In this document: piece by piece, positions 287 to 20,570 of the stretch
Numbering within the stretch: position 1 is the first letter of the stretch
Layout of the letters: each line of letters begins with the position of its first letter
Assembly (NCBI GenBank): GCA_947650285.1
Contig: CANTFL010001260.1
Span: 234,112-298,111, forward strand
Source: Hyaloperonospora brassicae
Lineage: Eukaryota > Oomycota > Peronosporomycetes > Peronosporales > Peronosporaceae
DNA: 64,000 nt
Reading direction: 5' to 3'
Made by a program: the position numbers and the translations under genes
Notes under the pieces: generated by a model
Seen by the model: only the letters and a program-made list of their open reading frames with translations
Told to the model about the DNA's origin: nothing
Database searches by the model: none

Positions 287-2392
287 TTACAACAATCGCT
301 CACTCTTGACCGCAGTGCCACTCGTTGGCGACTGCTGCTGGTGCTGTTGCTGGAGCTTCATCATCTGCTTCTTCTGGCGCAGCTTCTGCGGTCGCTTGTC
401 GCCAAAGAGCGAACGAAAGCGGGACCGCAGCTGTGATGCCGTGAACTTGGCGAGCGGCGCGTACTCGTCGACGCCCGTGCGGCCCGTGGCGAGCATCTCC
501 CAGCACACCTTCGACAGGTGCCGACAGCGCGGGTCTTTCACGGCGTACTCGAGCTGGCGGATGTTGTCTTCGCTCCACGCGTCCATCTTCACGGGGCTGT
601 TGGCCGGGAGCTCAAACTGCCGGAGGTAGGCGTGCTGCAGCTCCGTGCCCGTGAACTGCGTCAGCGGCGCGAATCGGTCGTCTTTCATCCCGCCGGACGC
701 GAGCACCGACCAGTAGATCTTCTTGCCCCGACGGCACGGGTTCGGCCGGGCCATGTTCACGGCTTCGTACAGCAGCTGCAGGTGCTCTTGCGGCAGCAGC
801 CGGAGCGGCGCGTTCGATCCGGCAGCAGGCGACACTCTATCCCCAAACGTCACGCCCGCACCCGTTCCAAAGAGGGCGTCGGACGGCGAGCTGAGGAGGT
901 GGTTGCCACTGCCGTCCGCCTCGCGGCTGAGACCCGATACAGCGTAGCGCTGTTGCTGCTGCTGCTGCTGTTGTTGTTGCAGCTGTAGCCTCTCGGCGTC
1001 CGTGGGCTCAATGAGCGCGTCGAGGAAACTGTCGTACGCCTGCACGTCAAACTCGTTGTCGCGCTGGATGTCCAGCGGCTGGAGGAAGGCACTGGACGAG
1101 CCGGCCGTGTAGACGTTGGGGCCATGACCGCCGTAGCTCTCGAGCTGCAGCTGTTGCTGCTGCTGGTGTTGTTCGTGATGGTGTAACTGCTGCTGCTGCT
1201 GCTGTTGTTGCTGGAGGGCGACGGCGGCGGCGATGCAGTGGGTCAGGAGGCGGCTGTGGCCGGTCTTGAACCCCGCGAGCGCCTGGTGGTCGTGCCCGAT
1301 GAACTCGAGGTCCCGCACGCTCGCGTAGCCGAGTCGGCAGAGGTACTCGGCGTACTTGAAGCTCGGCGCTCGCGGGATGCCGCAGAGCTCGAGCCACTTG
1401 GACACGGTCGAAGACGAAGCCGACGAGAGGTCCATTGGGCCCTGGAACTGCCGCGCGTAGAAGCTGCGACGCGCTTGTCGCCACACGACAGGAGCGTCCG
1501 TCAGCCCCGCGCGCTGGAGCTCTGGCACAGTGGCAAACGCCAGCGCCAGGACCGAGTCGAAGCCGTCCTGTGCCAGACGCCGCGCGGCTGCGGCCGAGTC
1601 CTGGGGGAGCTGCAGGTTCTGGAGGAAGAGCAGCACGTCGGTGTCGTGGGCGGTCGCGACGTCGTAGGCGTCGGCGATGTTGTAGCCATTGGCTGCGCCC
1701 GAGTCGGGCAGTGCCGCCGTGGGACGTGCTGCTGATCCTATTGCAGTGGAGGAAGTGGTACTGCAGCTGCTGCTGCGGGTGGTGGGCGTCGAGGCAAAGA
1801 GCGACGAGAGCGGACCGGAGGAGGAGGTCAGGTTGGTGGGCGTCGGCACGCTGCTGCCGAGTTCAAAGCCGGCAAAGTCGAGTTTCAAGTCGGGGAACGC
1901 CGACGAGGGCGACGGCGGCGCGGACGGCCGTTGCCGTTTGCGGTGGCGCTGCAGCTGCTGCTGCTGCTGCTGGGCGTCGCTTTCGAAGGGCGTGACGGTC
2001 ACGGCCGTCGTGAGTTGCTTGAGCTCCGGCCACGACGAGAGCGCTGTGCCAGCCGCTGACGAGACAAAGACGTCGTCGTGGAGGGCCGTGCTATAGCTGC
2101 TACTGGTCGTCGTGCCCCGGCGGCTACAGCTCCGGTCGTCACAAGTGGTGCGAGGGCTGTTGGTGGGCTGCATGAGCGAAGAGGGAGGGGACACTGGGCG
2201 ACGGGCAGAGGGCACCTCGACTCGTTTGCCGTCCTCTGGTGTGCCAGGGGTCAGTGTGGGTGAGGCCCCGAAGGCGAAATCGATTGTGGTTGTCGTCGCT
2301 GCTACTGCTACTGATGCGATCGTCGGCGTCGTCCTGGTGAAAACCCAACGCCGACGCGGCCGATCCCGTGTCCCTTGTCCAAAAAACTGCAT
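287..2392 (-). CDS. PolyQ protein with SAM-like and SANT/Myb-like segments
   Basis: Intronless 701-residue ORF with an ATG at 2390-2392 and a TAA at 287-289; an in-frame Met at residue 74 is an alternative start. The N-terminal ~240 residues are Ser/Thr/Pro-rich and look disordered. Residues ~250-312 and ~329-392 are two helical segments resembling SAM domains (e.g. WLELCGIP, then LCRLGYASVRDLEFIG). Residues ~530-590 and ~603-662 are two related helical segments with the spaced Trp/Phe pattern of SANT/Myb repeats; each holds a matching core (YWSVLASGG and CWEMLATGR) followed by APLxxFT. Gln runs occur near 141-146, 394-402, 411-414, 472-481 and 681-687. Composition and domains suggest a nuclear regulatory or DNA-binding protein (inference). 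This is the only clearly host-type gene outside the cutinase array. The domain names rest on pattern recognition, so an oomycete-specific family is possible. Confidence 0.75.
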   Translation of the reverse strand: MQFFGQGTRDRPRRRWVFTRTTPTIASVAVAATTTTIDFAFGASPTLTPGTPEDGKRVEVPSARRPVSPPSSLMQPTNSPRTTCDDRSCSRRGTTTSSSYSTALHDDVFVSSAAGTALSSWPELKQLTTAVTVTPFESDAQQQQQQLQRHRKRQRPSAPPSPSSAFPDLKLDFAGFELGSSVPTPTNLTSSSGPLSSLFASTPTTRSSSCSTTSSTAIGSAARPTAALPDSGAANGYNIADAYDVATAHDTDVLLFLQNLQLPQDSAAAARRLAQDGFDSVLALAFATVPELQRAGLTDAPVVWRQARRSFYARQFQGPMDLSSASSSTVSKWLELCGIPRAPSFKYAEYLCRLGYASVRDLEFIGHDHQALAGFKTGHSRLLTHCIAAAVALQQQQQQQQQLHHHEQHQQQQQLQLESYGGHGPNVYTAGSSSAFLQPLDIQRDNEFDVQAYDSFLDALIEPTDAERLQLQQQQQQQQQQRYAVSGLSREADGSGNHLLSSPSDALFGTGAGVTFGDRVSPAAGSNAPLRLLPQEHLQLLYEAVNMARPNPCRRGKKIYWSVLASGGMKDDRFAPLTQFTGTELQHAYLRQFELPANSPVKMDAWSEDNIRQLEYAVKDPRCRHLSKVCWEMLATGRTGVDEYAPLAKFTASQLRSRFRSLFGDKRPQKLRQKKQMMKLQQQHQQQSPTSGTAVKSERLL

Positions 2393-5300
2393 CTTTCGCG
2401 GCGACGCCCAGAAACGGGACTGCGCGCAACATCCTTCGTCGACAAAGAGCGGTCAGGCCGAGTCAGCGCCGCGCAGGTGTATCCGTGCGCCTATGTATAC
2501 ATACACTTGCATGCAGATCCATCGCGCGATCGACACTGGGCGAGCACTTGCTGTATCTTCTGGCGCAAATGAGACTTGGACGCGTCGCTTTTCTCCCCCC
2601 CGTACGTGCTGCACGGCGCACTGCTTTGACAGCGATTCCCTTTGCGCGGAGTGGCGCATCTACCCCAAAGCTGGTAACAAGTTGCGATTCCTGAGGTAGC
2701 CGGTGCCAGCATCGTGTTGATTTCATAGATAATAAATAAGCGGCGCATGGGGTGATGCATTGGACCAAAAGTCCCCAAAAGTCGACTATAATGTTGGGAT
2801 GACGAGCTCCTAACAGATGCACGAAATCGATTGTACCGGATGTCGTTGCTCGACCGAGCAGCTATCGATCGCACTTGACGGCACTTGGCGTCTGTCAAGC
2901 ATGGAGCAATGCATGCAAAGCCGACGTGTCACGGTTGTTACGCTGTAGGTCGGGTAGAGACAGTCGTTCGCGCGCGTGTCGCCTCTTGTTCGCAGATACT
3001 TGAGAAACGCCGCAGATCGAGCACGTGAGCCCAGCGATCGTCCAGTGCAATAGCGCTCCTGCGACCGCTATCTCGGACGTGACACAACCATCAGCAGTCA
3101 CCGACAGACAGTCGAGCGGGGAATTTCGTTGCGTGTCCTGAGCGTCGGCAGCGACGACCGTGCCGTGTGACCAGGCAGTACCGCTCGATCTCAAGTAAGC
3201 GCATGTCGGCTCGGCTCTATTCTACTCGGCGCTATTGAAGGTATATTACAGCCCTCCTGGCTCTACGCCGCACGTATCATGCGACCCGTCTCCACACGGC
3301 TGGTGCAGCACAGCCAGATCGCCAGATCGTGGCCGCGACTGGCAAGTGCGCTGATGGCTGGCGCCGGCAACCATGCATGCGATATCGCGCTGCCAGCAGG
3401 TATCGTGTCTCCCCGCTTCGGACAGCAGCAGCAGCACGTGGTCGATGCAGTTGGTTTGCCTCAGCTCGAGCTCGTCGCAGCAGTACGTTCGAGAGCGGCT
3501 GCAAAATTTCGCGTCACACGCAATGTGAAACGTGACTCACTTCGCTGCCCGTCTGCTTGTAAAGCTCTTGCGGGAAGCAGCCGCAAGGGTACCTTTGGGA
3601 CATGGGACGTGTCGCGAGCCCTGCTCTTTCGCACGCGTACGACGCGTAGGCACATTGCCACCAGCACTTTGGACTCGGCACAGGAACGCTGGCTGAAAAA
3701 CGGCCACATGCACCCACGGCCGAACGCTCGAGGGAGGATTTTTCGCTCGCTTGCTTGTAGCTTGTCGCGTGCTGCGACGCGAGCGAGGCAGATACCGCAG
3801 CGATAGCCGGGTAACGACGTCGAAGCTGTAGAGTAGCAGCAGGTCCTGTCTGTAGCTTCTTCGTGGGATCCCTGTGGTCGACACGACGTCAGGCCGTGGG
3901 ACCAGCCTGCTGCCACGCCGCACTTCTGCCGCAGCAGACGTTGCACTATCCGAATATCACCGATTTCGAACAAGTCGGTGACTCGGGGCGATGGACAGGT
4001 GCTATCGCCACGGGCGTCGCACTCATCCTCGGATCGCGCGAGCAGCCACCGTTGCAGGATATGTGGCTCGAACGCGATTCCGACACGGACAGAAGGAGAA
4101 GGAGAAGGAAAAGGAGAGGAAGAAGACGAAATAATCTCGTATAATCGACTGTCTGATCCTCTCTCTCTAGAAGAAGAAGAAGAAGAAGAAGGAGAAGAGG
4201 CACTGTTTCGAGATGCGACAGGCTTCAAATCGAATCCAGCCCACAACAGCGGCGCGTGTGCCTTCGTAGAGGTAATTAATCCATTGGGTCAGCGCGAGCG
4301 GGAGACATCCTTGAAGAAAAAGGATGGAAGACGCGAGGGCCGCGCGGTTAGCATAGCAAGGACTCCTGTCCTTTCAGCGAGCATCGACGTCGTCGTTCAT
4401 TACGCCACCAGAAAAACGCATCCTCACAATCTGTGCCGAGCCATCAAGCAAGAGAAGAGGACTGGGCCAGTGGCACTCCAACGATAAGTCCGTCCCTTTC
4501 TTGACGCTGCGTCGAATCTCCCGTAAAAGCTAGCCGCGCCTTGTCTCCTCACAAAGCAATGGAGGATAGTACACTCGGTCTCAGCATCTCCCCCTCCACG
4601 CTGTGGTGCTGCTAGGACGGGGGTGCTGAACGCGATGATGCAAAGACACGCGGCCGTCACCTGTGCAAGTCTCTCTGAAGCAGCAATTACAGCTACAGGC
4701 ACTCGATCAGGCGCGATGAACAGCTGTGGCGATCTCTATTCCGAATAAGCGACCAGAATACTTCAAGAAAGCTGCATGTGCGCACCATCCCGACGTAGCC
4801 GCCACACGACAGCTTCTAGCAAACGGAAGGCGTACTGCATCAACGCGAGGCAACATGTCCAAGTGCGTTTGTAGCGAATCGACGATCGAATGATGACACT
4901 CGTCATGCTGTCGACCCCAGCTGAGAGCATGTCGGCTAGACGACGCCAAAATCTACGGCACAGCAACGTGTATCCAACTATGCGAGCAGAGGACCCACCA
5001 CGGACGCAGTAGTCACGGCCAGTCCGCAACGTCCCGCCGCGTATGGTGTGTCAAACATTGAAAGAAAGCTTGACCGATCGCTGACTCAAGGAATACTGTA
5101 CCAACGCGGGATGGCCGTGCAGGCAAAGAGGCGTCGCCGGTAACGTCGTTACAATCCCCATCCGAAGCTCCGACAGTGGGGCTGGCATCACGGCCGATAT
5201 GGCAATGACAACCGTGGCCCCGGTGTGTTCAAGCTTCGTTGTCCGTCGTAAGCCAACGTGTGGAAGGCTGCGTCCGTGCGTAAGACACTGTCGATCCTAC

Positions 5301-6296
5301 CGTAGTGGAGGGTTCTTGCTGCTAAGCGCCGCGCACGTGCCTCCCGCGGGATACTGAGTCGACCGATTGTAGAAAGAAACTCAGTGTGAAGCTACAATGG
5401 AGTAGGAGTAGTCCTCCTCCTCCACCCCAGTTACTTGAGCCGACCGCGTCGTACTTCAAACAAGCATCGTCTATCATGCGAAACATGTGCTTCAATATGC
5501 AAAAGCACGTGCATCGAAACGCACGATTTGCATCGGGCCTGTTCTTGCGTCATGTGGATATTCATTTGCCGTGGTCGCTGGCTTCCACCAGCAGCCGCCA
5601 CGCTGTCGGCTCAAGGTACACCCAGGACAGATGTGTCCTGGTATCGACGCCGGTTGGATACCCTTGTGCTCAATAAACCGTTGCTGTCCCCCGCAAAAAG
5701 GCGCAGCCATCATGCCTTGCAGAACCAGTCGTTGGGGTAGAGTCGAGGACGAGCGATGACCGATACGGTGCCACCACTAGACCTTGACGCTTTCGGCGTG
5801 ACGCATTGCTGCCTCTTCTAGCCGCAAGTCCGTGTGTGCAGGCCATCGCTTCCATGGGGTGTGAGACGAGTGCTCATCACTGTGGACGGTCGACATTCAT
5901 CGTCTGGGAGCTTCAAGTTGAAGCTGGCAGGAGAACCAAGGTCCCTCTCCGCTCCAGCACGTCGCTTCTTCATCCTGTATCGCGTCAGTGGACAATGGAA
6001 ATGTTTAAGTCCATACTGTGCGTCAACAGCAGCCCTGCTGCATTGACCTGCAGTAGGGTACATCTGCTTTCGTTGTGTGTGTCGCAGCTGCTGTGGCAAT
6101 GGGCTTGTGAATGGCAAATGGCCATGTAGACGAAGCAAACTGCCCATTTCGTAGTCTGCCCATCATGTCGCCAAGGGCATCACTCGACCCCATGTCTGGA
6201 GTGAGTGTATGTAGCTTTCCACCTCCAGACAGTGCCTTCTACTCATCTTTGCTGCGGTAGTGCCGAAGATGGCGTGCTTAACGACTAACTACTCAG
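2393..6296. other. No recognisable gene
   Basis: ORFs here are short, overlap on both strands and show no family motif. The longest, on the minus strand at 3461-4246, draws much of its length from purine-rich simple repeats (poly-Ser when translated) and I do not accept it as a gene. The promoter of the gene at 287-2392 must lie at the left end, but I could not pin an initiator. Some minus-strand fragments around 4.7-5.0 kb could be old transposon sequence. Confidence 0.5.
4091..4200. repeat. Purine-rich GGA/GAA microsatellites
   Basis: Two purine tracts are visible: GGAGAA-type at 4091-4130 and GAA at about 4169-4200. They create spurious Ser-rich translations on the minus strand. Confidence 0.85.
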
Positions 6297-9200
6297 TCTT
6301 GTTGTTGTCGTTGTTGTTGTTGAAATTGAGGCATATTGAGGAACGATTGGCGACCAGCAATACCCTGTCCAGATAAATGTAGTTATGTGGTGTCACGGCC
6401 TTCAGCATCCGACAATGCGACCGCACGAACGACATGCCGTCAGGCTATGATCGGGTGATCCGCCGAGGCCCTTCCGCGGGCGGCAGGAGTTCTGTCTGGC
6501 TTCGACAGAGAGTGGTGTCTCGAGCCAATAGTTGCCTTCCGGTAAAGTGCGGCGAAGTGTGGCTGGCGCGGCGAGCGGGACAGTCGAAGTTGAGTGATGA
6601 CCGTGGCACTATCCCCAACAGCATGCACAAGAGTAAAGCTGCTGTCTTTCGTTCGCTGCAAACCGTGGACGAGGCCGTAGTATGCAGTCATGTTATCCGT
6701 CGCATGAGATGGTCGGGTGGAAAGTGCCGCAAGGTCAGGAAGTGGGGTGGAGGCGACGCGAAGTGGTACAAAATCGCATTAGCCAGCGCTGAGCGGACTC
6801 GAGCTAGAACGAAATATCGGGTATCGCCACCGAATTGGTACGTCGAGCCTCGACGAAAGGGGATTGCTCTTTGCAAACCGGATGAGCAATTGCGTTGTGG
6901 CTCTCATCGGATATCGTCGTTGCGTTGCCTATCCGTCGTAGCCGCTCTAGCCAAATGGCGTGGGTTGTCATCGACACAATAACTACTCGGTGTTTGTGTG
7001 CGTATATCGTCGCGTCGAAGCGCCACTCAAGCATACGCTTCTGGTATCGTTACACCTTCAAACGTGCGATCGCTCAGCAAGCAAAGGCTACCAACACAGA
7101 TGTTCCAGGCGGTAGTGTCGAGCGAATACAAGAGCCCAAAGTGTTCTCTTCCATCTTCGTCGCGACCATGCGAGTCAATGATCTCAACGACAGGGACGTT
7201 GTAGAAATGTCCAACGCATGGGTCAAATGGACATAATCAGAAGGTCCCGGTCCTTAACGCCATAAAACACTGGCCTCATAAGCTCCATGCATATACTCTA
7301 TAGGTCCAGATCCTCAACGCCGCGGAGGATCTTAGACCAGCAGTGGTAAAAAAAGTTGTCTCACCCGGTGGATTGTAACTCGCAAGTGTCGTGGGGGACA
7401 TCTTAGTAGAGTGCACGACGACAGGCTGTTCTGGCTCTCAAAAGCACGATTGTCCTTTGGTAGACATCTCGGAAATCGACAGTCGCTCACGTCATCCGAG
7501 CAATGACGAGTGCGCTGGTGAATGCTGGTAGCAGAGCCCTAGAATCCTCATGATGTGAGCGGCTTCGCTAACGTGGACGTTGTCATCCAAAGGGGGGGGT
7601 GGATTTGGCATGATGCGTAGCGACATTTGAAAAGGATGCGCGCACTTGAAACACCGTAAGCAAACGCCGTGAAGGGCGGTACCGTCTCAGGACCTGCATC
7701 TGCCGTGTGGTGGGTGCATCGCAATGCCGTGCTTGACGTCCTGCCAGCGTCAGTTCTCCTTTACGGTGCGCTTGTTACCATATCGAGTCGAGATATGCCC
7801 CACGTTTTTGATAGAGGTTGATCGATACTCTTTCCTACGAGCACAAGATTGATGCGGCGTCGTGGCTTCCACCTCTGTCGCACAGCTGCAGCCATCAGTG
7901 CATGCTGCCTTCATTAACAGTAGCTGAGCTTGTTAGTCGGAACATCTGCATTATGCCTCAACACCCTCAGCACGCCCTCTCCACGATCTCGATCCAGTGG
8001 ACTATAGCAAGTCTGTTACTTATGTGACTTTGACCGGAGTGGCACGCCGTTGATACGCACAGCTTCCAGATGAGGAAGAAACGTGACGGCCTCACCTATC
8101 AGTCACTTACGCAATACATCATGATACTAGCCATACTTCCGTCTATGCGAACGCAGTACCGATGCTAAAGACGCAGATACTAAACTCTACAAGTCCAGGA
8201 CCGTGAAAAAGATGGAAGATACGTCAGTCTTGATGCTTTTTTGCGTCGACTTGATGGGTTGTGTCGCTCCTCTATCGCCTTTGATTTCGATGACAAAACG
8301 TGCGATTGAAAGATTAGCGGTACACCATTCCACGCCGATGTCTGCAACATGGCAGCAGGTATAACATGCTTCGCTCTTCGTAGCAGTCAAGCGATACGTG
8401 TTGTGCAGTGCATGGATACGCTCTTGCACGACGTAGGACCGGCTTTCTCGTGAGGCTTCTGTAGGACCAGATGAAGTCGAGCAAAGGAGCTACTAGTCCT
8501 ACATTATATGTTCTCAGCAGGCTAAGCACCTAAACGCTTCACAATATGCGAACATCGTGTTGTTGTGATTGACACACTCATAGAGGACTCAGCGATGTTT
8601 GCTGCTGAGACTTACCTGTCGTCGAATGACGCGCTAATGTAGTAGCACCTCACGCCTCGGCTAACAGTAAGTCTGTCTGAAATGTCGGAGAAAGATTTTG
8701 AGGTGCCTTCGCTGAGCAATGCAACAACAAATGTTCCACTACCATATTCATCATTTACATATGCATGTACAGGAAGAAGCACGACTCACTGCTGGTCGTA
8801 CTTGCTGGCGTGTAGTGAGACCAAGCACAACAGATTGGCTGAATGCTACCGTAGTACAATACAGAAAGGCTTTACACTTCTTCAGTGCGTGACCGTTGGA
8901 GGAGGGCTAGACAGTGCACGAGTGCGCTCGTGTTGCATTGTGCGCTCTGCTCCGACTTTTCGACCTGGTGAATCTTGTACAGCCTTACAACTCTAGCTTG
9001 ACTTTTTAGCCGGAGATCATAAGTGTTCCCAGCCTGGAATCATGCCATGCATGGTGAAAAGCGCATTGGACGATCGCTCGATGAATGAATAGAATACAGA
9101 GGCTAGAGCGAGGAGAGATTATATCTCAGCGTAACGGTCGTTTGAGCGCGTACTGCTTGTTGATGATTCTGTTTAGATACTACACAAAGTTTTAAATCAC

Positions 9201-10065: not shown

Positions 10066-10070
10066 AGGAG

Positions 10071-10461
10071 TGTAACGGGGCACACCCTTGCGTGAACTTA
10101 ACGCAAGGGTATCGGTGCCCCGACAGACGTACACAAGGCAAGCGAGCAGGCGTAGATAGGGTGAAAGCAGAACTGTTATATTAATATAATTAAGTCTTTG
10201 AACTACTGTCTCTTTGTTCGACTTAACTCAATTATGCTAATATAACTGAGTGTATGGTGACGTCTCGTCACCACTCATTGCGCGCGTCTTGCGGCGATTG
10301 GTGGGTTGATATCATCAAGATATCAACCAATGAACAGACTCTTTGGTCGACCCATCAATACCACCACTTCGATGATATTGTTTAAAGAATATTCAACTTC
10401 GTATTCTTTATTGTCACTTTCCTTAAAGTGACAATTCCATGTAACGGGCTGCCCCGTTACA
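10071..10461 (-). repeat. 3' LTR of the Ty3 element
   Basis: 391 bp with 10-bp inverted ends. It contains several perfect hairpins: stems at 10084-10093/10101-10110, 10304-10313/10319-10328 and 10411-10420/10425-10434. An outer stem GGGGCAC/GTGCCCC encloses the first of these. Confidence 0.95.
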
Positions 10462-10474
10462 TCACCCCCCTTAA
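10462..10474 (-). promoter_or_regulatory. Polypurine tract
   Basis: On the minus strand AAGGGGGGTGA lies directly before the 3' LTR, the expected place for the plus-strand primer. Confidence 0.7.
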
Positions 10475-10592
10475 CTGATAGTCACCGTGTGGCTATCGAA
10501 AATTATGGCGGCCACCCGTTGGTCACCATTGGAACAGGGAGCACTTGTTGGGTCAGTTCCATTCACTTTCCGCTCGACCTCACATAGTTAAC

Positions 10593-12198
10593 ATGTCTAT
10601 GCGGGGTGACTCAAGGCACACAGAGTCTGTGCCTGTGACAGCTTCTGCGGCAGACGATTCGTCGTCTGCTGCTCGTTCTTCGCCTGCAGCAAGAGGTGCT
10701 GCAGGTGCACGCGGCACAGCACCGCGTGCGCATGATGACCCCGACATTGAGGTCATCTACTCTGGCGAGTCAGACGTGTCTGACTCGGGCAATGCTGCAG
10801 AGGCGTCTCGATCACCGGCGACGACTCAGTGTTCGCCAAGGCCACTGCCGAACGAACGGACTCGTGAGTTGCAACACAGTCTGTTCGGCAGTGATGACGA
10901 ATCCGGTGATGAGTATGTTTGCTCATCACTGCAATCAGCTCGTGCTCCTTCGCACGAGCGACTTGACGATGGTGCAACCCATCGTCATACTGACAACCGT
11001 GGTACCGACAAGGGTACCACTGTGAAGCGTGATGAGCTGAAGCCGTGGCTTTCGCCTGAACGTCTCATCAATAGCTTGTCTCACGAGACAAGCCAACACC
11101 ATCGAATACCCTTATTCGATGCGACTGAGCTTCACGGCTTGACTCCCAGCGCGAGCAACTTTCGCGCTGAGGAAGACTTTTATCTCGATGTCTTCCTTAG
11201 ACATCGATGGTACAACAGCAACCAAAAGCGTGACAAAGCCTCGCTTTTGGCTGCGTGGAACGCGTTCGTCCAAAACGTAAAGAATTTTGGACGAGAAGGG
11301 TGGCTCAAGAAACTTGAGGCGACACGCCTCAGGTTCGAAAAGCGAACGCCAACCGGTGCCAGGTACCGGTTGCACTGTTTGTCAAGTGAGGCAGGCATTC
11401 CTTGCCTCACATGGGGAGACCCTTGTGCGAGTTGTGTTTGACAACTCGCAGCGTGCACATAGGGACGTGTATTTCCTAAGTTTACCCTGGGGAAGGGCAC
11501 CCATCTCGGAGGAGAAGCGTGACGCGATTGCAAACTTGCAATACGTCTACAATCGCCTAGGGCGCGTGTTTACCGATGGGCCCGAGGACTCATCGGATAG
11601 GTCTCGTCATACTGGCGGACGAGACCTTCAACATCCATCAACAGCTGAGAGCGGGGCTCCCAGCTGTTCCAAGAGGGTGGATACCCCCGCCACTGGACGA
11701 GGTAGCTCGTCCTTGATCCTGAATCGTCACGGTGATTCAAGATACGCTCCACTAGAAAGCGTTGACCACCGTGCGCATCCACCAAAGGATGTGGTGGAAG
11801 AGGAAAGACCTCCTCCAGAGCCCCAGGCCCACCATCTCGACCCTTACGAGATGGATCGCGCAATCGATGAATTGCGCGATGACTTGAAGCACGAGCGCGA
11901 CTGGCGCTACGCTTTGTCTGATACCGTGCGGAAGAACCGCAAGGATCACGAGGCTGATCGGGCGAGGGATCGCGCCGATCATGCCACGGCGCAGCTTCAG
12001 GTCGAGCGGGATGTCCGCTCCCTATTCGGCGAGCTGGCGACAGCTCGCGGGGAGATATCTCGGTTAAGGTACGAGGTATCATATCTGCGCGACCAGACGG
12101 ATCGTCTGGAGCGCGAACGCAAGAAATTGATGGATGTTCTTGAACGTGGGGGATATCTTCATCGGAAGAAGAAGGCTCGTACTGACAGTACGGCCTGA
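10593..12198 (+). pseudogene. Antisense accessory ORF of the Ty3 element (one frameshift)
   Basis: A long ORF lies on the strand opposite to gag-pol, just inside the 3' LTR. ATG at 10593 opens a frame that runs to a stop at 11439-11441. A second frame, open from before 11287, runs to a stop at 12196-12198. Joined by one indel near 11.40-11.44 kb they would give about 535 residues. The N-terminus is Ser/Ala/Asp-rich and acidic (DDPDIEVIYSGESDVSDSG). A middle part with FYLDVFLRHRWYNSNQKRDK looks globular. The C-terminus (about 11850-12190) is a strong heptad coiled coil ending in a basic stretch (RKKKAR). The last ~630 bases overlap pol antisense, including the chromodomain. I recognise no family. 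Antisense extra ORFs are known in some plant LTR elements; whether this one is homologous is unknown. Confidence 0.65.
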
Positions 12199-13360
12199 GC
12201 CTCCCCACGTAAAACGTAGGATGCGTGCGCATCTTACGTGGCAATTCGAGTGTGTATGCATTGCCCTTGCAATGCAACACTCGAAATGGCCCAATGTACT
12301 TCGGCAGTAGTTTTATACTGCCGACACTAGTGACTGCGTGTCCAGGTAAGTTTACCGTAGACAGTAGTACTTGGTCGTTAACTTTAAATGAAAGAACATA
12401 TGCTCTTCCATTCTTGTCTGCGTACCATTTCTGACGGTCCACCGCATTTGCGATGGCGTCCTGAACGAAACGGACTACCGCTTCTCGAGTCAGCAGGAAG
12501 TTCTCTGCTGACTCTTTGTTTTGTCTTTCAGTGCGCTTCTTGCGCACTGCTAAGAGATTGTTCTCTTCTTCAGCGAGGTTGTCTTCTTCCTCGCTGGAAT
12601 AATCGTTGACGATGCTGAATATACCAGCATCGTCATCATCATACGAGTCAGTAATAGCGTCATCGCTATTGTTGAGGTGATCTTCTTCATCGATGTAGAC
12701 TTGATCGACATCGGCATCATACTTGACGACGTTAGCGTCGACACGTGATGAGCAAGAGCCAAAACGGTTTTTGCTCGAGCGAGTCCCTCTCCCCCTTATC
12801 CAAGAGTCACACTCTAGAAGGGTGGGCACACGTGGATGGCGTAGGCCATTCACGTAAAACGGTGTGTGCTGTGTGGAAGCATGCACCGAATTATTTATTG
12901 CGAATTCCACCATGGGTAGGAATTCGCTCCAACTCGAAAACGAGTGGACATATCCTCGAAAGATCTCTTCGGGGACACGATTTGCACGTTCCGTCTGACC
13001 ATCTGTTTCGGGATGGTCAGAAGTGGGCATCTTCAATCGTGTTCCAAGAGAACGGAACACGGTTTGCCACAATTCCGTCGTGAACCGAGAGTCACGGTCG
13101 GATACGAGTTCACGGGGTAACCCGTGGAGTCTAAAGACCGTGTCTAGAAATACACAAGAATAAATTTGAGCCTTGATCGACTCAGGGACAGCAGCAAGAT
13201 GGACCATCTTGCTGAACCGGTCAACAAACACAAGAATACCATTATTCTTGTGAGCGTCTTCAGGAAACCCGAAGACGAAGTCCATTGAAACGGACTGCCA
13301 GCACTCTGTCGGAACAGGCAGAGGATCCAATGGCGCACGGGATGAAGGACTAGGCTTCAC
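11570..13360 (-). CDS. pol: integrase core, GPF module, chromodomain
   Basis: A 596-residue open frame, in phase with the RNase H part. The D,D,E catalytic residues are seen in SMDFVFG (D27), SDRDSRF (D88/D90) and QTERANR (E124). A long acidic insertion (about residues 209-275, rich in Asp and Glu) lies between the core and the C-terminal GPY/F module ([10 protein letters not shown], 350-359). A Pro/Arg/Ser-rich linker precedes a chromodomain at 533-586 ([23 protein letters not shown]), which classes the element as a chromovirus. The chromodomain presumably steers integration to modified histones (family knowledge). The segment from 12198 down is also read on the other strand. Translation as listed begins only after the upstream stop, so this is a fragment of pol. 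Confidence 0.9.
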
Positions 13361-13375
13361 TCGTTGACAAACCTC

Positions 13376-13864
13376 TTAAGCACGTATGTACTTGCGGACA
13401 AACTGATACTGGCGTGGCCAGTAAAAGTCACGACTTACCGTGAGGTAAGTCTTTTCTCTACCACGATGGCAGCCTGTTGGGGCATCGTGACACTCATACA
13501 TGATGCGTAAACGCAAATCATGATGAGCGGGTACGATGACACGAGGCGTGTCGTCGGCAACAGCTGTATAGTACAGCAATCCGTTGAGTGTACTATACTG
13601 ATCCGATGAGGATCGGTACAAAGCTGGTAAATTCCTCATGGATTTACTGGATGGATTCACCAGATGATCCATCAATCGCAGAAGATCCTTATCTTCCGCG
13701 TATGACTTTCGTACGTCTTCAAGTAAACTTGACGAAGGGACACTGACTGACAGTGTCGCAACAGTGGGCTTATCCTCACTGTTGATTTGTGCGTCCGGCT
13801 CGAAATCGGGCCGGCGCGAAAGCGCATCAGCGACGACATTGAGTCGTCCTGGTTTATACTCCAC
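13376..13864 (-). pseudogene. pol: RNase H end and integrase zinc domain
   Basis: Same frame as 14036-14395. It contains the RNase H/connection motif ADALSRRP and then the integrase HHCC region (HHDLRLRIMYECHD...). A TAA at 13376-13378 stands at the position of the first Cys of the CxxC pair; the second (EVCQRVKP) follows in frame. Confidence 0.85.
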
Positions 13865-14035
13865 GGAGAAGTTATACTATGCGAAGAAAGACAGCCACCT
13901 CGCCATCCTTTGCGAGAGGTGTGGGCTGTTTACGGCCGTGCGTAATGACGCATGGTCCGTATAGACAACAAACGGTCGATCTCCCAAGAGATAGACGCGA
14001 AACTTAGCCAGTGCGTACTTCATGTCAAGGAGTTC

Positions 14036-14395
14036 CTAATTATGCATTGGGTAATTGCGCTCAGATGCTTGCAGCTGTCGCGACTGATAACAGATGACGC
14101 GCTCCGCGCCATTTGCGTCGAATTGCATTAACGCACAGCCGATTGCAAAATCGCTGGCGTCACAGACCACATGAAATGGTCTCTCCTGATCTGCAACCGA
14201 CAAGATCGGCGATTGCATCAAGATTTGCTTGATACCCTCAAAGGAACGCTGGCACTCAGCGTTCCATGACCACTTGACATCTTTCTTGAGCAAGCAAGAA
14301 AGATGAACAGTCATCTCGGCGTAGTTGCGCGAGTACTTGTGCAAGTACGCCGCTAGACCAAGGAACTTTCTTAGTCCCTTGACATCGACTGGCAC
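14036..14395 (-). pseudogene. pol: RT thumb and RNase H
   Basis: Continues pol after the frameshift. LRKFLGLAAYLHKYSRNYAE is the usual RT end, and VVCDASDFAIGCAL marks the RNase H start with its catalytic Asp. A TAG at 14036-14038 interrupts the frame where a Lys-Glu-Leu-Leu-like stretch is usual. The frame then runs on through a YTDHASL motif to a second TAG at 13877-13879. Confidence 0.85.
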
Positions 14396-16413
14396 TGGCC
14401 AGTCGCTGATCGCCTTGATCTTTCCGGATCAGGGCGTACGCCGTGTTTACCCACGATGCACCCAAGAAGTGGTATTTCGCTAGCCGCGAATATACACTTC
14501 TTGAGGTTGGCGTACAACTTATGCTTGCGCATAAGTTGAAGAACCTGACGAACGTGAGTTCTGTGAACTTCAACGTCCGTCTTTCCGTCTATATCCCGGC
14601 TATGGACGAGCACATCGTCGAAGTAACTCGGTTCGAAGTCTCGCACCGGTCTCAACAGATCTGTAACACATCTGTTGAATGTTGCAGGGGCATTGCTCAG
14701 CCCCTGTGGCATCACTAGCCACTCCCACAGCATCCCGCTGGGGGTACTCACTGCCGTGAACGGGATGTCCCGTTCACGCATCAGGATCTGATAGAACCCA
14801 TCCACCAGATCCATGGACGAAAAGATGGTACTCTTTGACATACCATCTATGATTACGTCCTTCCTCGGTATTGGCGTCTGAGCCGGTACCGTTGCAGCGT
14901 TCAACTTGTTGAACGCGTGCACTATCCTCCACCCTACTGTGGCCTTTCGCACACATAAAGTCGGAGAGCTGTGATGGGATGTTGATTCCCTCACATGGCC
15001 CGCTGCTAAGCGATCGGCAAAGAAATTGTAGATCGCTAGTACTTGTTCACGAGGCAGTGGCCACTGCTTCATGACACGGTACTTCGAGACCGGTTTGAGC
15101 TCGATCTTGTGTCGAGTGCCTTTGTCCTTAGGCAACTCGCAAGGTACGGATTCAGGGAACACATCCATGAATTCGATCAAATCCTTATACAAAGGATTTG
15201 CCTGAAGTGACTCCCAGGATTGAGATATGTATCGCTCAATCCGAGTCTTCTCATCGAGGACACTTTCATCCATCGATGAGCTGCTGAGAACCCGTTCGTT
15301 CTCAGCAAATACTGTCGCCGACCGATTATCGGCCACATAATCATCCTCTGTTACGAGTATGCAGATCTGCTTGACTTTGCCACTACGCAGATCACGCAAG
15401 AACCGTTTCGGTTCTAGCGTTGTCAACTGAGTTATCTCCGAAGTTAACTTCGGAGGCACAATCAGATCAAGCGTATAAGCGCCTACGCTTGATCCGTCAT
15501 TAAACAAGACGTTTAACGTCTCGGTTACTTCCTGGGAACTTCTTTTCACAGGTTGCTGATGGCCTAATCCTTCAGCAAGTGACTCTTGAGGAATTCATTC
15601 CTCAAGTACGTGGGGACTTATTACCTCGACGTCTTCTGACTGTGGCTGTGCAACCACAGTCAGGGACCGATCTTCTACGGTCGACTCTCCAGTCGACCTA
15701 GGATTTTTATGTTGCCCTTTAAAGGCAACAGGTATCTTTTGGCTAAGATGCTACCCGCTAGGCATGCATCCATGTCCCGGTCCACGCGACTTATTCGAGT
15801 GGTGGACCTTCGGCGCCGCCAGTACTTCTGTACAGCTGCCGGGAGCTTGCTCCATAGTGTAGTGATCAACTACACTGTGATCTTGTGCAGTCGTGCTAAC
15901 GACCGTACCGCAAGTGAGGCCATCGAACTCACTCGCATAACATCCACACGCTTGTGGACGCTCCAAGATGTTCATCAGATGGCCATCTGATGAACAAGCG
16001 GCAGGCATCTTCACGGATCGATGCTGCCAGCTCACCCTTGGCTCGTACTTTCTGAGCCAAGATAATCCCAGGATGACATCAAATTTGTCATCCAGATCCA
16101 GTACGATGAAGTCATCATCGTACGGTTCGCCCTCCAACGTGAAGTGGATTCCGACTACACGTTTCTTGACGGTAATCGATGCACCTGTTGCAAGGCGCAC
16201 CGTCATCCTCGTGAGGGGAATGTCGCGCTCAACGAACTTGAGCCTACGACCCTCTTGTGACTGGCGACGAACAAAGTTGTTCGACGCCCCACAGTCTACT
16301 AGGGCACGAAGCGACAAATCATTTGTCGCTTCCAACTTCAAGGTGATGAGCGAAACGTCATCACCAGGTGCAGAGACACACAATGATTGTGTATCTGGAG
16401 CAACTTTCGTCAA
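14371..16413 (-). pseudogene. pol: aspartic protease and reverse transcriptase
   Basis: One reading frame, open upstream of 16413, is interrupted by TAG at 15751-15753 and TGA at 15595-15597. The protease part (15751-16413) has the retropepsin active-site variant LVDCGAS and the ILGLSWL motif typical of Ty3 proteases. The RT part (14371-15549) has SSMDLVDGFYQ with the first catalytic Asp, VMPQGLSNAP, and the catalytic YFDD about residues 309-312. VHAFNKLN stands where Ty3 RTs usually have a VxDYRxLN-like motif. The frame is lost by an indel near 14.39-14.41 kb, beyond which RT continues in another frame. Confidence 0.85.
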
Positions 16414-16463
16414 GAGATTTGCAAATTCTCTTGCGGTTGCTGGATCAGTACGGCACTCCGCCC

Positions 16464-17618
16464 CTACTGACCCCGTCCATTGTTTGATGGTTCGTTTCGC
16501 TGTTGCGGCTTCGCAACAGCGCTGGACCCACGCCCATTGCCCTTTCTGGCAAATGGACGACCATTTCGCTCAGTACTGTTTGGTACTGGGCGTGGAGCAC
16601 TTCACTCGTATGCGTAGTGCCCTAACTTCTGACAGCGATTGCACCTCTGCAATCGCTTGTTGTTTGAAGAGCGAGGTCTCTTGCTCTCAACATAGCAGAG
16701 GTCCATTGGTTCTGGACCTCCTATCTCTTGTCGTCTTGGTGGACGATAAGAGTTTGAGCTAGTATGAGCCGGTCTCATGCTAAAGTCTTCCTGTTCCGCG
16801 GCTGATATCGCATCTACCAGCGTATTCAGCTCAAGGCGGAACAGGTGGCTCCTGATGTGCTCTTTTGAGAGCCCTTGCATGAACACCGTAATCAACGTGT
16901 GTTCATGAACTGGGTTAGCAGTTATAATACTCGCGAGGAGTCGTATATGTTGAGCGTAAGCGTGCACATCACTCTTACCCTGCTCGATTTTCAGGAGCTC
17001 ATAACGAGCCCTGAACTCAGCCCGTGGCGGCCCAAACGTTTGTCTGAGCCGGGACCTGAAGTCATCTAGCGACCTACACACATTTGGGTCGCTACTCTCG
17101 AGCCCCAGGGACCAAGTTTTGGCACGACCTGCCAAGTGGGTCTGAGCAAATGTGAGTTTCATTTGCTCATCTTCGATGCGACGAGCCCTTAAGACTCTGT
17201 CGAGTTCGACAAACCACAGTAATAGGAAGTCCTCCAGGACTCCACTGTACTTGGAGATGTCAACCTTCATGACCTTGGGACGACGCGCATGTGCCGTCCC
17301 TCCCACAGCAGCATGGAATTGCTGCTGTCTCAACAGCTCTGTCTGTTGAGCACTGAGTTCTCTCAACTGCTCGGCCTGTTGAGAGCCTTGCTGGTGAAGC
17401 AAGGCTACTTTCTCCCTTTCGGCGACAAGTTCATTTTGAATGAACTTGGCGATAGCGGCATGTTGTTGGTCTCTGTCTAGAGACTCCAACATGGAGCTAA
17501 TGGCGAAATCGCCTACGGTAGAACTCATTCGTTCTACTGCACTCCATTTGATGTCACTCAAATGGTTAAACCCTTCACGCGTGGCGTGAAAGGTCTCTTC
17601 ATCATCCAACATGTTCAT
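16464..17618 (-). pseudogene. gag with internal TGA in zinc knuckle
   Basis: Frame opens with ATG at 17616-17618 and closes with TAG at 16464-16466 (about 384 codons). It starts with a Gln/Glu-rich coiled-coil stretch (residues ~50-100). The capsid-type region of Ty3 Gag follows, with KYSG near residue 120, then LAGRAKTW and an RARYELLKIEQG segment. A CCHC zinc knuckle (CNRC...GHYAYE) comes near residue 325. The codon expected to supply the last Cys of the knuckle is TGA (16602-16604), splitting the frame; about 45 further codons, rich in Arg/Asn/Gly, follow. The start codon sits in a perfect 10-bp hairpin (17603-17612/17617-17626). The pol frame lies -1 relative to gag. Confidence 0.85.
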
Positions 17619-17642
17619 GTTGGATGTTGTGGTCCTTGGAAG

Positions 17643-17660
17643 GACTCTAAAGTGCTACCA
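17643..17660 (-). promoter_or_regulatory. Putative primer-binding site
   Basis: On the minus strand, two bases after the 5' LTR, the sequence TGGTAGCACTTTAGAG begins with TGG, the complement of a tRNA CCA end. I could not assign the tRNA. Confidence 0.55.
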
Positions 17661-17662
17661 GA

Positions 17663-18053
17663 TGTAACGGGGCATACCCTTGCGTGAACTTTACGCAAGG
17701 GTATCGGTGCCCCGACAGACGTACACAAGGCAAGCAAGCAGGCGTAGATAGGGTGAAAGCAGAACTGTTATATTAATATAATTAAGTCTTTGAACTACTG
17801 TCTCTTTGTTCGACTTAACTCAATTATGCTAATATAACTGAGTGTATGGTGACGTCTCGTCACCACTCATTGCGCGCGTCTTGCGGCGATTGGTGGGTTG
17901 ATATCATCAAGATATCAACCAATGAACAGACTCTTTGGTCGACCCTTCAATACCACCACTTCGATGATATTGCTTAAAGAATATTCAACTTCATATTCTT
18001 TATTGTCACTTTCCTTAAAGTGACAATTCCATGTAACGGGCTGCCCCGTTACA
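17663..18053 (-). repeat. 5' LTR of the Ty3 element
   Basis: Same length and ends as the LTR at 10071-10461. The six differences I count fall in loops or unpaired positions; one lengthens a stem. It should contain the element's promoter on the minus strand. Confidence 0.95.
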
Positions 18054-18247
18054 AGGAGTTTGTACCACTAAGAAAAATGTGTGTGTGGGGATCTCGCTTC
18101 TACTCTTAAGCTGAGACTACCGCGTGCACGCTGCAAAGATGTACACGTGCTCGAGTCACGTGCTACTGAAAAAGTCAGTCACTTCCGTGCTCGTTGAGCA
18201 GATGCTGTTTCAGGTCTGCTATTAGTGGCCGGTATTTATGCGCACAC

Positions 18248-18690
18248 TGTAACGGGGTAGCCTGTGACATGAAATTGTCATAAAGAAGAAAATGACAATA
18301 AAGAATATTACGTTGGATATTATTTTTAATAAGATTACGAAGCACAGTGATTTTGTTGGGATGACCGAAGGGTCTACTCATTGGATGACATTGTGACTAT
18401 TTCAACCCACCAATCGCTGCTACACGCGCGCAATGGGTGGTGAAAAGACGTCATCATACACTTAGTCACAGTAATATAATTAAGTCAGGACAAAATAAAG
18501 AACAAGAGTTATAGGACTTAATTGTATTAAATGACAGTTTCACTTTTACCACTACTACAGTCTTTAACCTTAGTTGCTTACCTTCCTATGTATTGGTGAA
18601 ATACATAGCAGGGCACTGACCTTCACTGTTGTCATTGAAAGTTAACTACGTACTAACAAAGCAGTACGTAGTTGTCGGTGCCCCGTTCCA
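18248..18690 (-). mobile_element. Older solo LTR related to the Ty3 element
   Basis: A 443-bp sequence, read on the minus strand, begins TGGAACGGGG and ends CCCCGTTACA. It aligns along its length with the 391-bp LTRs but is strongly diverged. CACAC flanks it on both sides (18243-18247 and 18691-18695), an exact 5-bp target duplication, so it arose by LTR-LTR recombination. It keeps hairpins at the same places with different stems (e.g. 18644-18654/18663-18673 and 18586-18593/18601-18608). Confidence 0.85.
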
Positions 18691-20570
18691 CACACATTTG
18701 GTGCGACGTACGCGAATCCATCGCGCAGCTTGCAGCCCTGTCCGCCATCTCGTCGTAATCTCGGTAGTGTCGCGACTAGCTGATGATACCCAGTCCCTTG
18801 GAACATCATCTCGCCGTCATGTACGGTAGTACTAGCGAAGCTACCACATCTCCTTGCCATAGGAAGCTTATTATCAAGAGCCAATAGTACCTTGACAATG
18901 GGACTTAACTAGCTCTCTGATCTGCGACTCAACTAGGTTTAGCAGCAGCGACTCAACGAATTTACTCAGACCACTAAGATTCTAGTCCTGGTCCAAGGGG
19001 CTCGGGAATGGCGTGTGGATTCAGGCATTAAGATGTTTTGGCCAACTTGTCTTCCCCTGTCTGAGTGGTCAGAATCCAATTTGTGAACTATAGTATGGAA
19101 ATTGCTGTTAGTGGTTTTCTATATATTAATAGACTGGGGAGCGCTTAGGCGGGTAGTTTGGTATGCGAAGTATGATTATGAATTGGCTTGCTAGTTCTAT
19201 TATTAATAGCGTCTCATATGATCAATTATACCAAGTGTAAAGACTCTATACTTTAACAAGGCGTCCAACTCTTGTGATCAAAAGACGCCTTTGAAGGCAC
19301 GTGTCCTGATAGATCAAATGGCGTACCCATGCTTATAGAGTTTTTTTACACGGAAATTAATCCTGCGTATAAATAAATGTAAGGTTTTACTCTCTACTAG
19401 AGTAAAACCCTTTAACGTGTCTTTAAAGGCTAAAAGGACACTGATACGTGGTACATCACATTGTATACGTACCTGTGCCATGAATGTCCTACCACAGTGT
19501 ACCACCGATGTACTTCTTTACTTGAATGTTAAATCCAGGAATAAACATGTATCCCTTCTTCCCAAGGCGTCAGCAATGGTAGAAGGTGTAACCTCAGGGT
19601 CGCGCACATATTCACACGCTAGTATAGCGCCATCAGGCTGTGAGTGACATAATCTACGTAGTATCCTCGATATGGCCGTCAACTACGATATTGAAACCAT
19701 GTTTTAAGTGAAAAATCATCCACAAGCTGCTTGGTACAGCCGGATGCACAAAAATTGTTGCCCGGACAAGAAGCAGATAACACACTGTCAGCGCTGAGTA
19801 ATACGCAAGACTAAGATTCCAAAATGATAACAAATATGATCGACGATCAAGAAACGTACGACACCGTGGTGGACAAGAGTGATTGCGCACGGTCGAAGGC
19901 AATTGCGTCTTTGCAGGCTAGACAACAGAATGTATGATCAATCAAAGACAAGAGCCAGAACTAAAACCGAGATGGCAAAGAGCGAAGCCAAATCGGTTAA
20001 TCTAGACGTAAGAGCCCGCCTGACCGGTTTTATTTGGTTACACGCTTTAATCATTGAAACTGTATTCGTACAACTATATATAATTAGTGTACGCAAGAAA
20101 CCCTTCATTATTAAAATTGACAGCCGCAAGCGCCCGCGAGAGACAAAATTTAAATAATACCACAGCTTTTTTTCGTATAAGTTCTGCAATTAAATAATGA
20201 GTTTCTTTTACAGTACCTCCCCGAGGTATTGAACGACTTTAAATCATTCTTAATGATAAATATACTGAATTTTCTATATTTTCATACTAAATATAGCAAT
20301 GTTCAAGCCTTACACGAACGAATTTGAAAGAACAATGTTCGTGGAACGAAGTAGGGAAATAAGAACCTTAAAAATATTGTTCTCGAGGTTTTGTAGCTTC
20401 GTCCGTAATATCGTTCTTCGCCGGGAAATACGCTAGCGTGTGAACTGCAGAGTGGGACGATTTCTCTTCTTGTCGGTCTTGTTGGCAGAAATTTATGATA
20501 ATAGTAAAGCGGTAATCTATTATCATCTCGGCAGATAATATATATATGTATATATTGCAGTCTTCCGACG
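18691..20570. other. No gene; one hairpin-rich block
   Basis: No ORF resembles a known family. Around 19240-19450 there are further perfect hairpins of the kind seen in the Ty3 element (for example a 10-bp stem around 19383-19409), suggesting an old fragment of a related element. From 19.7 to 20.5 kb the sequence is AT-rich. Confidence 0.4.

Follow-up and report, generated by a model that had tools for sequence, protein, structure and literature searches.

In RNA viruses, genome-scale ordered RNA structure (GORS) is reported to run the length of a genome through coding and non-coding sequence alike (PMC3695492, PMC7642675), and the dispersed packaging signals reported for MS2 and other small RNA viruses are many similar stem-loops, possibly read by a capsid protein (PMC4751978, PMC6281560). 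The Ty3 element described here resembles the former in the spread of its structure and in a folding energy, for its family A, well under that of shuffles, and the latter in the many similar stem-loops found along its length. It is unlike GORS as so described in that its structure consists of discrete short perfect hairpins that give G.U pairs no credit, whose size is typical of the family and whose host is an LTR retrotransposon, and in that the folding z of the related families B and C is unremarkable; unlike the packaging signals as so described, the elements here have no apparent common loop motif. Stems of at least 8 bp with loops of 3-10 number 2 in MS2, 6 in Qbeta and 6 in PP7 (3.6-4.2 kb) versus 106 in L021, an 8 kb copy of family A. 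Quasi-palindrome templated mutation also gives perfect short inverted repeats, but the compensated pairs and the stem divergence that it predicts fit poorly with those observed here. A cursory search of the literature found no description of a comparable hairpin layer in retrotransposons.

The element occupies positions 10071-18053 (7983 bases) of the window, the whole stretch of 64,000 nucleotides of Hyaloperonospora brassicae DNA that was analysed, and is read on the minus strand; its bounds are confirmed by the LTRs and the target duplication. The LTRs are 391 bp long, start with TG and end with CA, and comparison of the two places the 3' LTR, with 6 perfect stems of at least 8 bp inside it, at 10071..10461 and the 5' LTR, which mismatches it at 6/391 positions, at 17663..18053 (both minus strand). 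The outermost 22 bases of the 5' LTR (18032-18053) form a 9-4-9 hairpin, and the 5-bp target-site duplication AGGAG is read at 10066..10070 and at 18054..18058. Two bases past the 5' LTR begins TGGTAGC..., a candidate primer binding site (17648..17660, minus strand), and GTTAAGGGGGGTGA, adjoining the 3' LTR at 10462..10475 (minus strand), is a candidate polypurine tract. The gag open frame (338 aa, 16602..17618, minus strand) was assigned from the ORF and from its counterpart in L021, which matches Retrotrans_gag, Ty3_capsid and, weakly, CCHC knuckles in Pfam. The pol of the window copy is split into several frames on the same strand: the protease region (220 aa, 15751..16413; RVP_2 in the L021 pol), the reverse transcriptase region (392 aa, 14371..15549; RVT_1), the RNase H end with the integrase H2C2 region (162 aa, 13376..13864; RT_RNaseH and Integrase_H2C2), and the integrase core with SH3_Tf2-1 and a tail judged by eye to be chromodomain-like (596 aa, 11570..13360; rve and SH3_Tf2-1). 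The order of Pfam matches in the L021 pol (RVP_2, RVT_1, RT_RNaseH, H2C2, rve) fits Ty3/gypsy; SH3_Tf2-1 is present in families A, B and D2, and PF00385 is listed for many relatives, with no listing for the scanned L021 frame. Chromodomain-type Ty3/gypsy elements of oomycetes, represented by proteins of Phytophthora, Globisporangium and Peronospora, likewise have LTRs, gag, protease, reverse transcriptase, RNase H, integrase and an SH3_Tf2-1 tail. The plus strand carries a conserved antisense gene in two open frames, the first of 298 aa and lying past pol (10545..11441), whose matching frame in L021 has relatives in downy mildews, and the second of 303 aa (11287..12198), with weak coiled-coil matches under the Pfam cut-offs. 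Hairpins occupy the LTRs, the coding sequence and this antisense gene alike.

Perfect Watson-Crick stems with loops of 3-20 were counted in the element and in 30 dinucleotide shuffles of it. The hairpin set of 10071..18053 comprises 86 stems of at least 8 bp (1.7+-1.2 shuffled), and the counts are 113 from 7 bp (8.2+-2.7), 49 from 9 bp (0.1) and 31 from 10 bp (0.0). An earlier note on this DNA had claimed just such a density, and a chance rate near one 8-bp stem in every 4 kb; the first is borne out and the second agrees with the dinucleotide shuffles. In the rest of the window, stems of at least 8 bp number 1 (0.7 shuffled) at 44-48 kb, where the LINE lies, 5 (2.5) at positions 1-8000, 6 (2.5) at 20-30 kb, 3 (2.3) at 32-42 kb and 18 (3.5) in the tandem cutinase units at 48-64 kb, whose five 9-bp stems are a single stem repeated; 18054-20000, which contains a related LTR stretch, has 5 (0.5). 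A hairpin peak at 30-32 kb is chiefly a (TA)n run. Given that the pol of the window copy is broken, codon-preserving shuffles were run on the open pol frames of relatives, where the density again lies far above expectation: 53 stems of at least 8 bp in L021 versus at most 2 in 40 shuffles, 19 in C versus at most 2, 11 in B versus at most 3, and 99 five-bp stems in D2 versus 24.3 (maximum 33). The excess is independent of codon choice, and chance or composition as its cause is ruled out by the two kinds of shuffle. An assembly artefact is likewise ruled out, since all 9 further full copies of family A, on 8 contigs, show the excess.

Folding of the sense RNA was compared with shuffles in 16 windows of 150 nt per element. 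In L021 folding is pervasive, with a mean z of -5.72 and 16/16 windows below -2; the mean z is -2.1 in D2 (8/16 windows below -2), -1.7 in D (7/16), -1.5 in C (4/16) and -1.2 in B (3/16), B and C being no stronger than the LINE-like control L066 (-1.2, 4/16).

The hairpins of the window element mostly span 20-29 bases, most commonly 23-24. The longest among the listed perfect stems, at 15969..15996 in the protease region, has 13 bp and a loop of 2, and scores as 14 bp with loop 0 once short loops are permitted. Of the pairs of an 11-4-11 hairpin in the LTR (10410..10435), 8/11 persist in the related stretch of LTR that lies next to the element, one of them with both arms altered. Families that are 55-65% identical hold some hairpins at equal places, the letters of the stems having changed and the pairing having been kept. 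At the place of the 10-8-10 hairpin of the integrase region (12994..13021, TCTGACCATC/GATGGTCAGA) in the codon alignment, B and C form a hairpin from other stem letters, and the listed stem of 9 bp with a loop of 6 at 12301..12324, which is 11-2-11 in L021, also has homologues in B and C with altered stem letters. Homologous hairpins were found at 5 of 16 B centres in the B/C comparison (0.14 expected from shifts), and number 4 for A/B (0.19), 5 for A/C (0.39) and 5 for A/D (1.0). Hairpin places of A and D2 coincide at the level of chance (3 versus 2.0 expected), and those of B or C coincide with those of D or D2 at that level or not at all. Covariation at some homologous hairpins is shown by these computations.

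The related Ty3 families B, C and D/D2 of the same species also carry an excess, and the typical stem differs between families, being 4-5 bp in D, 8 bp in C, 8-9 bp in B and 8-10 bp in A, a difference not visible from one element. Counted by exact stem length with loops of 3-10 (observed/shuffled), D has 113/60 stems of 4 bp, 66/16 of 5 bp, 10/4 of 6 bp and zero from 7 bp up; D2 has 143/87 of 4 bp, 102/22 of 5 bp, 18/5 of 6 bp and 4 of 7 bp; C has 15/0.2 of 8 bp, 4/0 of 9 bp and 1 of 10 bp; B has 6/0.2 of 8 bp, 6/0.1 of 9 bp and 0 of 10 bp; and A (L021) has 33/0.5 of 8 bp, 31/0.1 of 9 bp, 33/0 of 10 bp and 9/0 of 11 bp or more. A hard ceiling on the stem length of D was reinterpreted, as counts beyond 5 bp drop to about a quarter or less with each extra pair; in D2 the counts of 102, 29 and 4 over successive lengths from 5 bp (loop 2-10) follow the pattern of chance extension. 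The 5-bp excess recurs in 6/6 recounted D loci (44-66 versus 14-17) and in 8/8 loci of the D2 group, plus L077. A further 5-bp excess is present in A (86/39) and, more weakly, in B (27/16) and C (32/17), where stems of this class per kb at least equal each of the 8-10 bp classes and a dip lies at 6-7 bp. A single exclusive stem length per family is thereby weakened, as two lengths, 4 and 5 bp, are in excess in D, and 5-bp stems are in excess in A, B and C as well.

Equal density in unrelated elements of the genome, which the earlier note had set as grounds for rejection, was absent from the six sampled: two Ty3 elements of another lineage (L063, L064), a LINE-like element (L066) and a Copia element (L080) have no hairpin excess in the stem-size count, and L065 and L067 have an excess at 5 bp only (32/20 and 28/19), "LINE-like" being a reading of RVT_1 matches, with a domain scan that covered L065 and L066. 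The 5-bp excess of a LINE-like element resembles that of A, B and C. A host-wide process is unsupported, given the elements with no excess and the mild one of L065 and L067, and among the elements sampled the hairpin excess is restricted to the clade of A, B, C and D/D2. Family loci were the best-scoring Pfam matches (30 of 150 listed) and hand-picked places, L078 being the same place as L056, so that well-preserved families are over-represented; clade members of greater divergence, hairpin-bearing or not, fall outside the sampled families. Stem and loop limits were set per family after viewing the distributions, except in the counts of the window element against shuffles, of the copies and of stem sizes. 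All the hairpin evidence comes from one species; scans of viral contigs and genome contigs yielded no DNA of relatives in other organisms.

Comparison of D and D2 indicates that the stems are constrained: divergence is 5.4% in stems, 15% in loops and 13% in the rest, stems diverging 2.4 times less than other sites, and third codon positions differ at 33/248 in stems versus 201/710 elsewhere. Fixed differences fall at 41/866 stem sites versus 274/2311 other sites and single-copy changes in D at 73/866 versus 205/2311, that is, alike (Fisher p 6e-5 for fixed versus single-copy, stem versus other); the D2 version of this test is weak (p 0.07). These counts use sites covered by at least 4 copies, omit two changes confined to the reference copy and keep in the denominator those D sites that lie past the D2 stretch. 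Changes common to some D copies number 13/866 in stems versus 84/2311 elsewhere, and those common to some D2 copies are not depleted in stems (8/820 versus 13/1760). Constraint on stems between active lineages is shown by these computations, and the most satisfactory explanation of the hairpins is selection acting in the active lineage. As single-copy changes in D strike stems and other sites equally, inserted copies are seemingly not maintained, which argues against selection at the level of double-stranded DNA, where the inverted repeats would be cruciforms or half-site palindromes for dimeric chromatin proteins. Strand symmetry and the lack of credit for G.U would suit such a reading; nevertheless it is very improbable, given also that no arm sequence shared among the stems was seen and that arms of 5 bp are too short for cruciforms. 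In family A, where 8 copies were compared with the L021/L022 state, 2.3% of cells differ in stems, 4.6% in loops and 3.5% elsewhere, and constraint on those 5-bp stems that lie outside the long stems is no more than mild (135/4429 versus 1182/32655 elsewhere). The mostly single-copy changes in A are also depleted in stems, so that selection before insertion and low mutability are inseparable in this family. The LTR pairs of A copies differ at 0-11 of about 390 positions, and the idea that differences between A copies arose mostly after insertion was dropped, as this divergence is below what the internal divergence implies.

A rival account is that no structure is selected and that reverse transcriptase perfects quasi-palindromes, the nascent strand folding back and one arm being copied from the other. 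Such copying would be Watson-Crick only, strand-symmetric, limited to the life cycle of the element and indifferent to the type of mismatch, and a few clustered multi-base differences do occur at the arms. This scenario is improbable, however, and appears to fit poorly for three reasons: first, 28/49 of the hairpins unique to D or D2 lie a single base away from the sequence of the other lineage, a result which alone is compatible with the copying of near-perfect repeats. Second, a simulated rate that keeps 46/61 hairpins gives 10.2+-3.5 compensated hairpins and 8.1% stem divergence, where 3 and 4.8% were observed; signs of arm-to-arm copying amount to these 3 hairpins and the few multi-base switches. 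Third, the arms do not differ, those of A stems having 196 and 194 changes, and this absent asymmetry also rules out directional proofreading by one arm in A.

Given selection on a fold, it may be asked which molecule folds. Relative to perfect stems, the acceptance of stems with one G.U pair is -6 to +10%, similar to that of A.C, and in the control RNA phages (MS2, Qbeta, PP7) acceptance of one G.U is 23-36%. G.U is also about equal to A.C in the phages, at that higher acceptance, and so the equality alone is no proof of DNA. RNA-type pairing that accepts G.U was found neither in the acceptance counts nor in the counts of change types: stem transitions and transversions in A stand at 230:160 versus 988:696 outside stems, and changes that make G.U are rarer in A stems than those that make A.C (odds ratio 0.71, p 0.02). 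Against DNA, G.U exceeds A.C in L021 at k=6 (0.103 versus 0.052); mismatch changes from D to D2 comprise 12 G.U and 7 A.C. When stems were compared with pseudo-stems of the same element, their order favoured DNA stability in 5/5 sets (z of -3.1 in D2, -2.4 in D, -2.2 in A, -0.7 in C and -1.3 in B), D and D2 being non-independent sets; about half of the raw signal is background composition and the remainder is about 0.1 kcal/mol per hairpin. For RNA stability the z is inconsistent (-2.3 in D2, which thus favours RNA too, -0.7 in D, +0.9 in A, +2.5 in C and +0.2 in B).

The main rival to folding of the cDNA is a structured genomic RNA. As in RNA phages and certain RNA viruses, its hairpins would be dispersed packaging signals bound by Gag or a general order that evades silencing. 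The sense RNA does fold beyond shuffles (mean z of -5.7 in L021, -2.1 in D2 and -1.7 in D), all drawn hairpins with loops of at least 3 are predicted to be stable as RNA at 25 C, homologous hairpins covary, and a stem-measuring protein would account for the family-typical sizes. Silencing is a plausible pressure, given that small RNAs are reported to line Gypsy elements in Phytophthora infestans (PMC3522703). This reading is nevertheless somewhat less likely than folding of the cDNA: G.U goes uncredited even in C, where there is energy to spare (median RNA dG -13.1; acceptance of G.U 0.04 and of A.C 0.06), the stem order in A, B and C shows no preference for RNA stability, and no shared loop motif was apparent in the loop letters and first and last bases. 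The one bias lies at the base pair adjoining the loop, with a 5' pyrimidine in 69-76% in D and G-C in 12/19 in C and 6/11 in B.

It is therefore cautiously suggested, at somewhat less than even confidence, that the clade of A, B, C and D/D2 is selected, in coding and non-coding sequence alike, for many short perfect Watson-Crick hairpins of family-typical size, and that these fold chiefly in single-stranded cDNA, the selected molecule being mainly the strand that reverse transcription produces inside the particle. The cDNA part is inferred from the lack of credit for G.U, the likeness of the arms and a stem order that favours DNA stability. The hairpins might compact the naked cDNA strand, shield it or pause its copying, which is a guess, and an element protein such as Gag perhaps sets their preferred size. 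A stronger form, in which strictly Watson-Crick hairpins of family-typical size make up a genome-wide DNA-level structural code in the cDNA that is read by a coevolving, stem-measuring protein of element or host, is rather unlikely, its standing being lowered because A, B and C also bear the 5-bp class. The earlier note had proposed selection for a globally folded RNA or ssDNA and had suggested a check on other copies and related oomycete elements. The hairpins recur in other copies and in related families of this species, and selection on a fold stands on the constraint, the homologues with changed letters, the related families and the controls; the RNA half fares less well, as G.U is treated much like A.C and other mismatches, and its alternative of ssDNA fits somewhat better.

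In summary, descriptions of genome-wide structure exist for RNA viruses, and here a clade of retrotransposons carries a version of it made of discrete short perfect hairpins. These hairpins constrain synonymous choice, and in such elements structure can bias both dating and tests on synonymous sites. If it is the cDNA that folds, reverse-transcription DNA would have a genome-wide structure under selection, and the finding opens to direct test the idea that retroelements give their nucleic acid a form suited to packaging, protection or copying.

Window positions 10071-18053 hold a minus-strand Ty3/gypsy LTR retrotransposon. Its LTRs measure 391 bp and the target duplication 5 bp, and besides gag it has a pol that in this copy is split over several frames. 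The genome (100.6 Mb in 898 contigs) holds at least 45 matches to its LTR; one locus (G000:C93:228276-230324) consists of five tandem LTRs with an identical 23-base spacer between them four times. Past pol, an antisense open frame lies on the plus strand at 10545-12198 (462 aa in L021, the reference copy with an open pol, at L021:6189-7574:-); the 462-aa frame has 25 related proteins, of which those with a species name come from Peronospora matthiolae and Hyaloperonospora arabidopsidis, and it appears to be an antisense gene that these elements conserve. The earlier note described the element as saturated with short perfect hairpins, and this was borne out: stems (perfect Watson-Crick arm pairs) of at least 8 bp with loops of 3-20 bases number 86 against 1.7±1.2 in 30 dinucleotide shuffles, and stems of at least 10 bp 31 against none in 30 such shuffles. 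The rest of the window is at about chance level, except for a (TA)n run, a related LTR stretch and tandem cutinase-like units (18 stems against 3.5 shuffled, partly one stem repeated). The latter, at 43006-63653, comprise four 269-aa frames, a fifth contained in a 359-aa frame, and a partial one; the repeat unit is 3.3-3.4 kb long. The LTR-like stretch (18248-18640, right end approximate) adjoins the element in opposite orientation and is 75-81% similar; one of its hairpins still pairs, with one pair altered on both arms. A lone perfect 24-bp stem with a 16-base loop at 38342-38405 exceeds every other stem listed in the window. In L021 the LTRs, the gag region, pol and the 3' region each have 13-18 hairpins per kb; hairpin spans cover 34% of bases, and hairpin centres have a median spacing of 47.5 bases. 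The claim also fares well against codon-preserving shuffling: the stem excess disappears from pol of L021 and of the related families B, C, D and D2 when synonymous codons are shuffled with the protein fixed, and the excess therefore lies largely in synonymous choice.

Hairpins are spread over copies and families. Nine other full copies of family A, to which the window element, L021 and L061 belong, carry 79-116 stems of at least 8 bp each; among L031-L053 and L056, loci of B (L031-L034, L056/L078) hold 3.5-4.4 and those of C (L035-L053, L071, L075, L079) 6.0-7.1 per kb, and an excess of 5-bp stems is present in every locus counted of D (L054, L055, L057-L060, L077) and D2 (L062, L068-L070, L072-L074, L076). 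No hairpin excess was found in the Copia element L080, LINE-like L066 or two Ty3 loci, L063 and L064, which a very long branch separates from the others. A rough 15-protein tree sets A, B/C and D on different branches amid the other oomycete relatives, and the named relatives in a protein search with family C pol come from Phytophthora, Globisporangium and Peronospora. Stem size is typical of the family: 8-10 bp with loops of 2-10 in A, 8-9 bp in B, 8 bp with loops of 3-4 in C, and 4-5 bp with loops of 3-6 bases in D, where spans of 13-14 are commonest. A (86 against 39±6), B (27 against 16±4) and C (32 against 17±5) are also enriched in stems of exactly 5 bp, and their counts dip at 6-7 bp ahead of the 8-10 bp peak; the enrichment in B and C is no greater than in LINE-like L065 (32 against 20±4).

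When one member of each family was placed in a codon alignment and hairpin places were compared, with the expectation obtained by shifting, 5 of 16 B centres were common to C (0.14 expected), and A shared 4 with B (0.19), 5 with C (0.39), 5 with D (1.0) and 3 with D2 (2.0); for B or C paired with D or D2 the number shared was zero or at chance level. In many common hairpins the letters differ and the pairing is kept, as in TCTGACCATC/GATGGTCAGA of A against GCCCATCC/GGATGGGC of B and C, and core stems are identical in two of the five B/C pairs. Thus a few hairpins persist from family to family, and the majority turn over. Over 2874 gap-free bases, 88.9% identical, D and D2 differ at 5.4% of D stem sites, 15% of loop and 13% of remaining sites, and at third codon positions in 33/248 within stems against 201/710 outside. 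Single-copy changes are as frequent in stems as elsewhere (D 73/866 and 205/2311, D2 30/820 and 67/1760), whereas fixed differences are sparser in stems (D 41/866 against 274/2311, p 6e-5; D2 58/820 against 212/1760, p 0.07), so that the constraint is not accounted for by ordinary mutation of inserted copies; it arises from something in the active life of the element. Changes that only some copies have in common are depleted in the stems of D (13 against 84) and not in those of D2 (8 against 13). In A, with the common state of L021 and L022 as reference, eight copies show changes in 390/16672 stem, 237/5109 loop and 1447/41651 other cells, which are non-independent, L023 and L024 (G000:C764, 29 kb apart) having 171 substitutions in common, as if from one duplicated stretch or one lineage inserted twice; in this family the single-copy changes, too, are fewer in stems. 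An alternative is copying from arm to arm. Of the 49 hairpins found in D or D2 alone, 28 reflect a single-base difference. In a simple simulation using codon-position rates, only 14.8±3.0 of 61 hairpins stay perfect without correction, against 46 observed. The correction rate that gives 46 predicts 8.1% stem divergence (4.8% observed) and 10.2±3.5 hairpins with compensated pairs (3 observed), so that selection, within the limits of this model, accounts better for the data.

As to which molecule folds, there is no enrichment of hairpins containing a single sense-strand G.U in D (L060, read from its antisense count, 15 against 14.6 expected; L054 11 against 15.6) or D2 (19 against 22.7). Acceptance of G.U per option is -6 to +10% of the Watson-Crick rate, with A.C alike, against 17-37% for both in the RNA phages MS2, Qbeta and PP7; equality of G.U and A.C is thus by itself no sign of DNA, yet the elements differ in strictness. 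Transitions and transversions are equally tolerated in A (230:160 in stems, 988:696 outside, p 0.95), changes making sense-strand G.U are rarer in its stems than those making A.C (odds ratio 0.71, p 0.02), and changes are shared evenly by the two arms (196, 194). Relative to pseudo-stems of the same element, and with composition controlled for, stem order favours DNA stability (z D2 -3.1, D -2.4, A -2.2, B -1.3, C -0.7) and is inconsistent for RNA (D2 -2.3, D -0.7, B +0.2, A +0.9, C +2.5); hairpins with loops of at least 3 are stable as either at 25 C. Given the G.U strictness, the mismatch pattern, the equal arms and the stem order, single-stranded cDNA is favoured with modest confidence as the folded molecule, some results pointing the opposite way.

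In the open-access literature, mostly abstracts and including PMC3522703, no description of such hairpins in an LTR retrotransposon was found. The base pair adjoining the loop is biased to a 5' pyrimidine in D and to G-C in B and C, with no bias in A, which together with the family-typical size suggests recognition by a protein differing between families, for which Gag nucleocapsid would be the obvious candidate. During reverse transcription RNase H would leave the first strand bare, and hairpins at about every 50 bases may make it more compact, protect it or set the timing of its copying.
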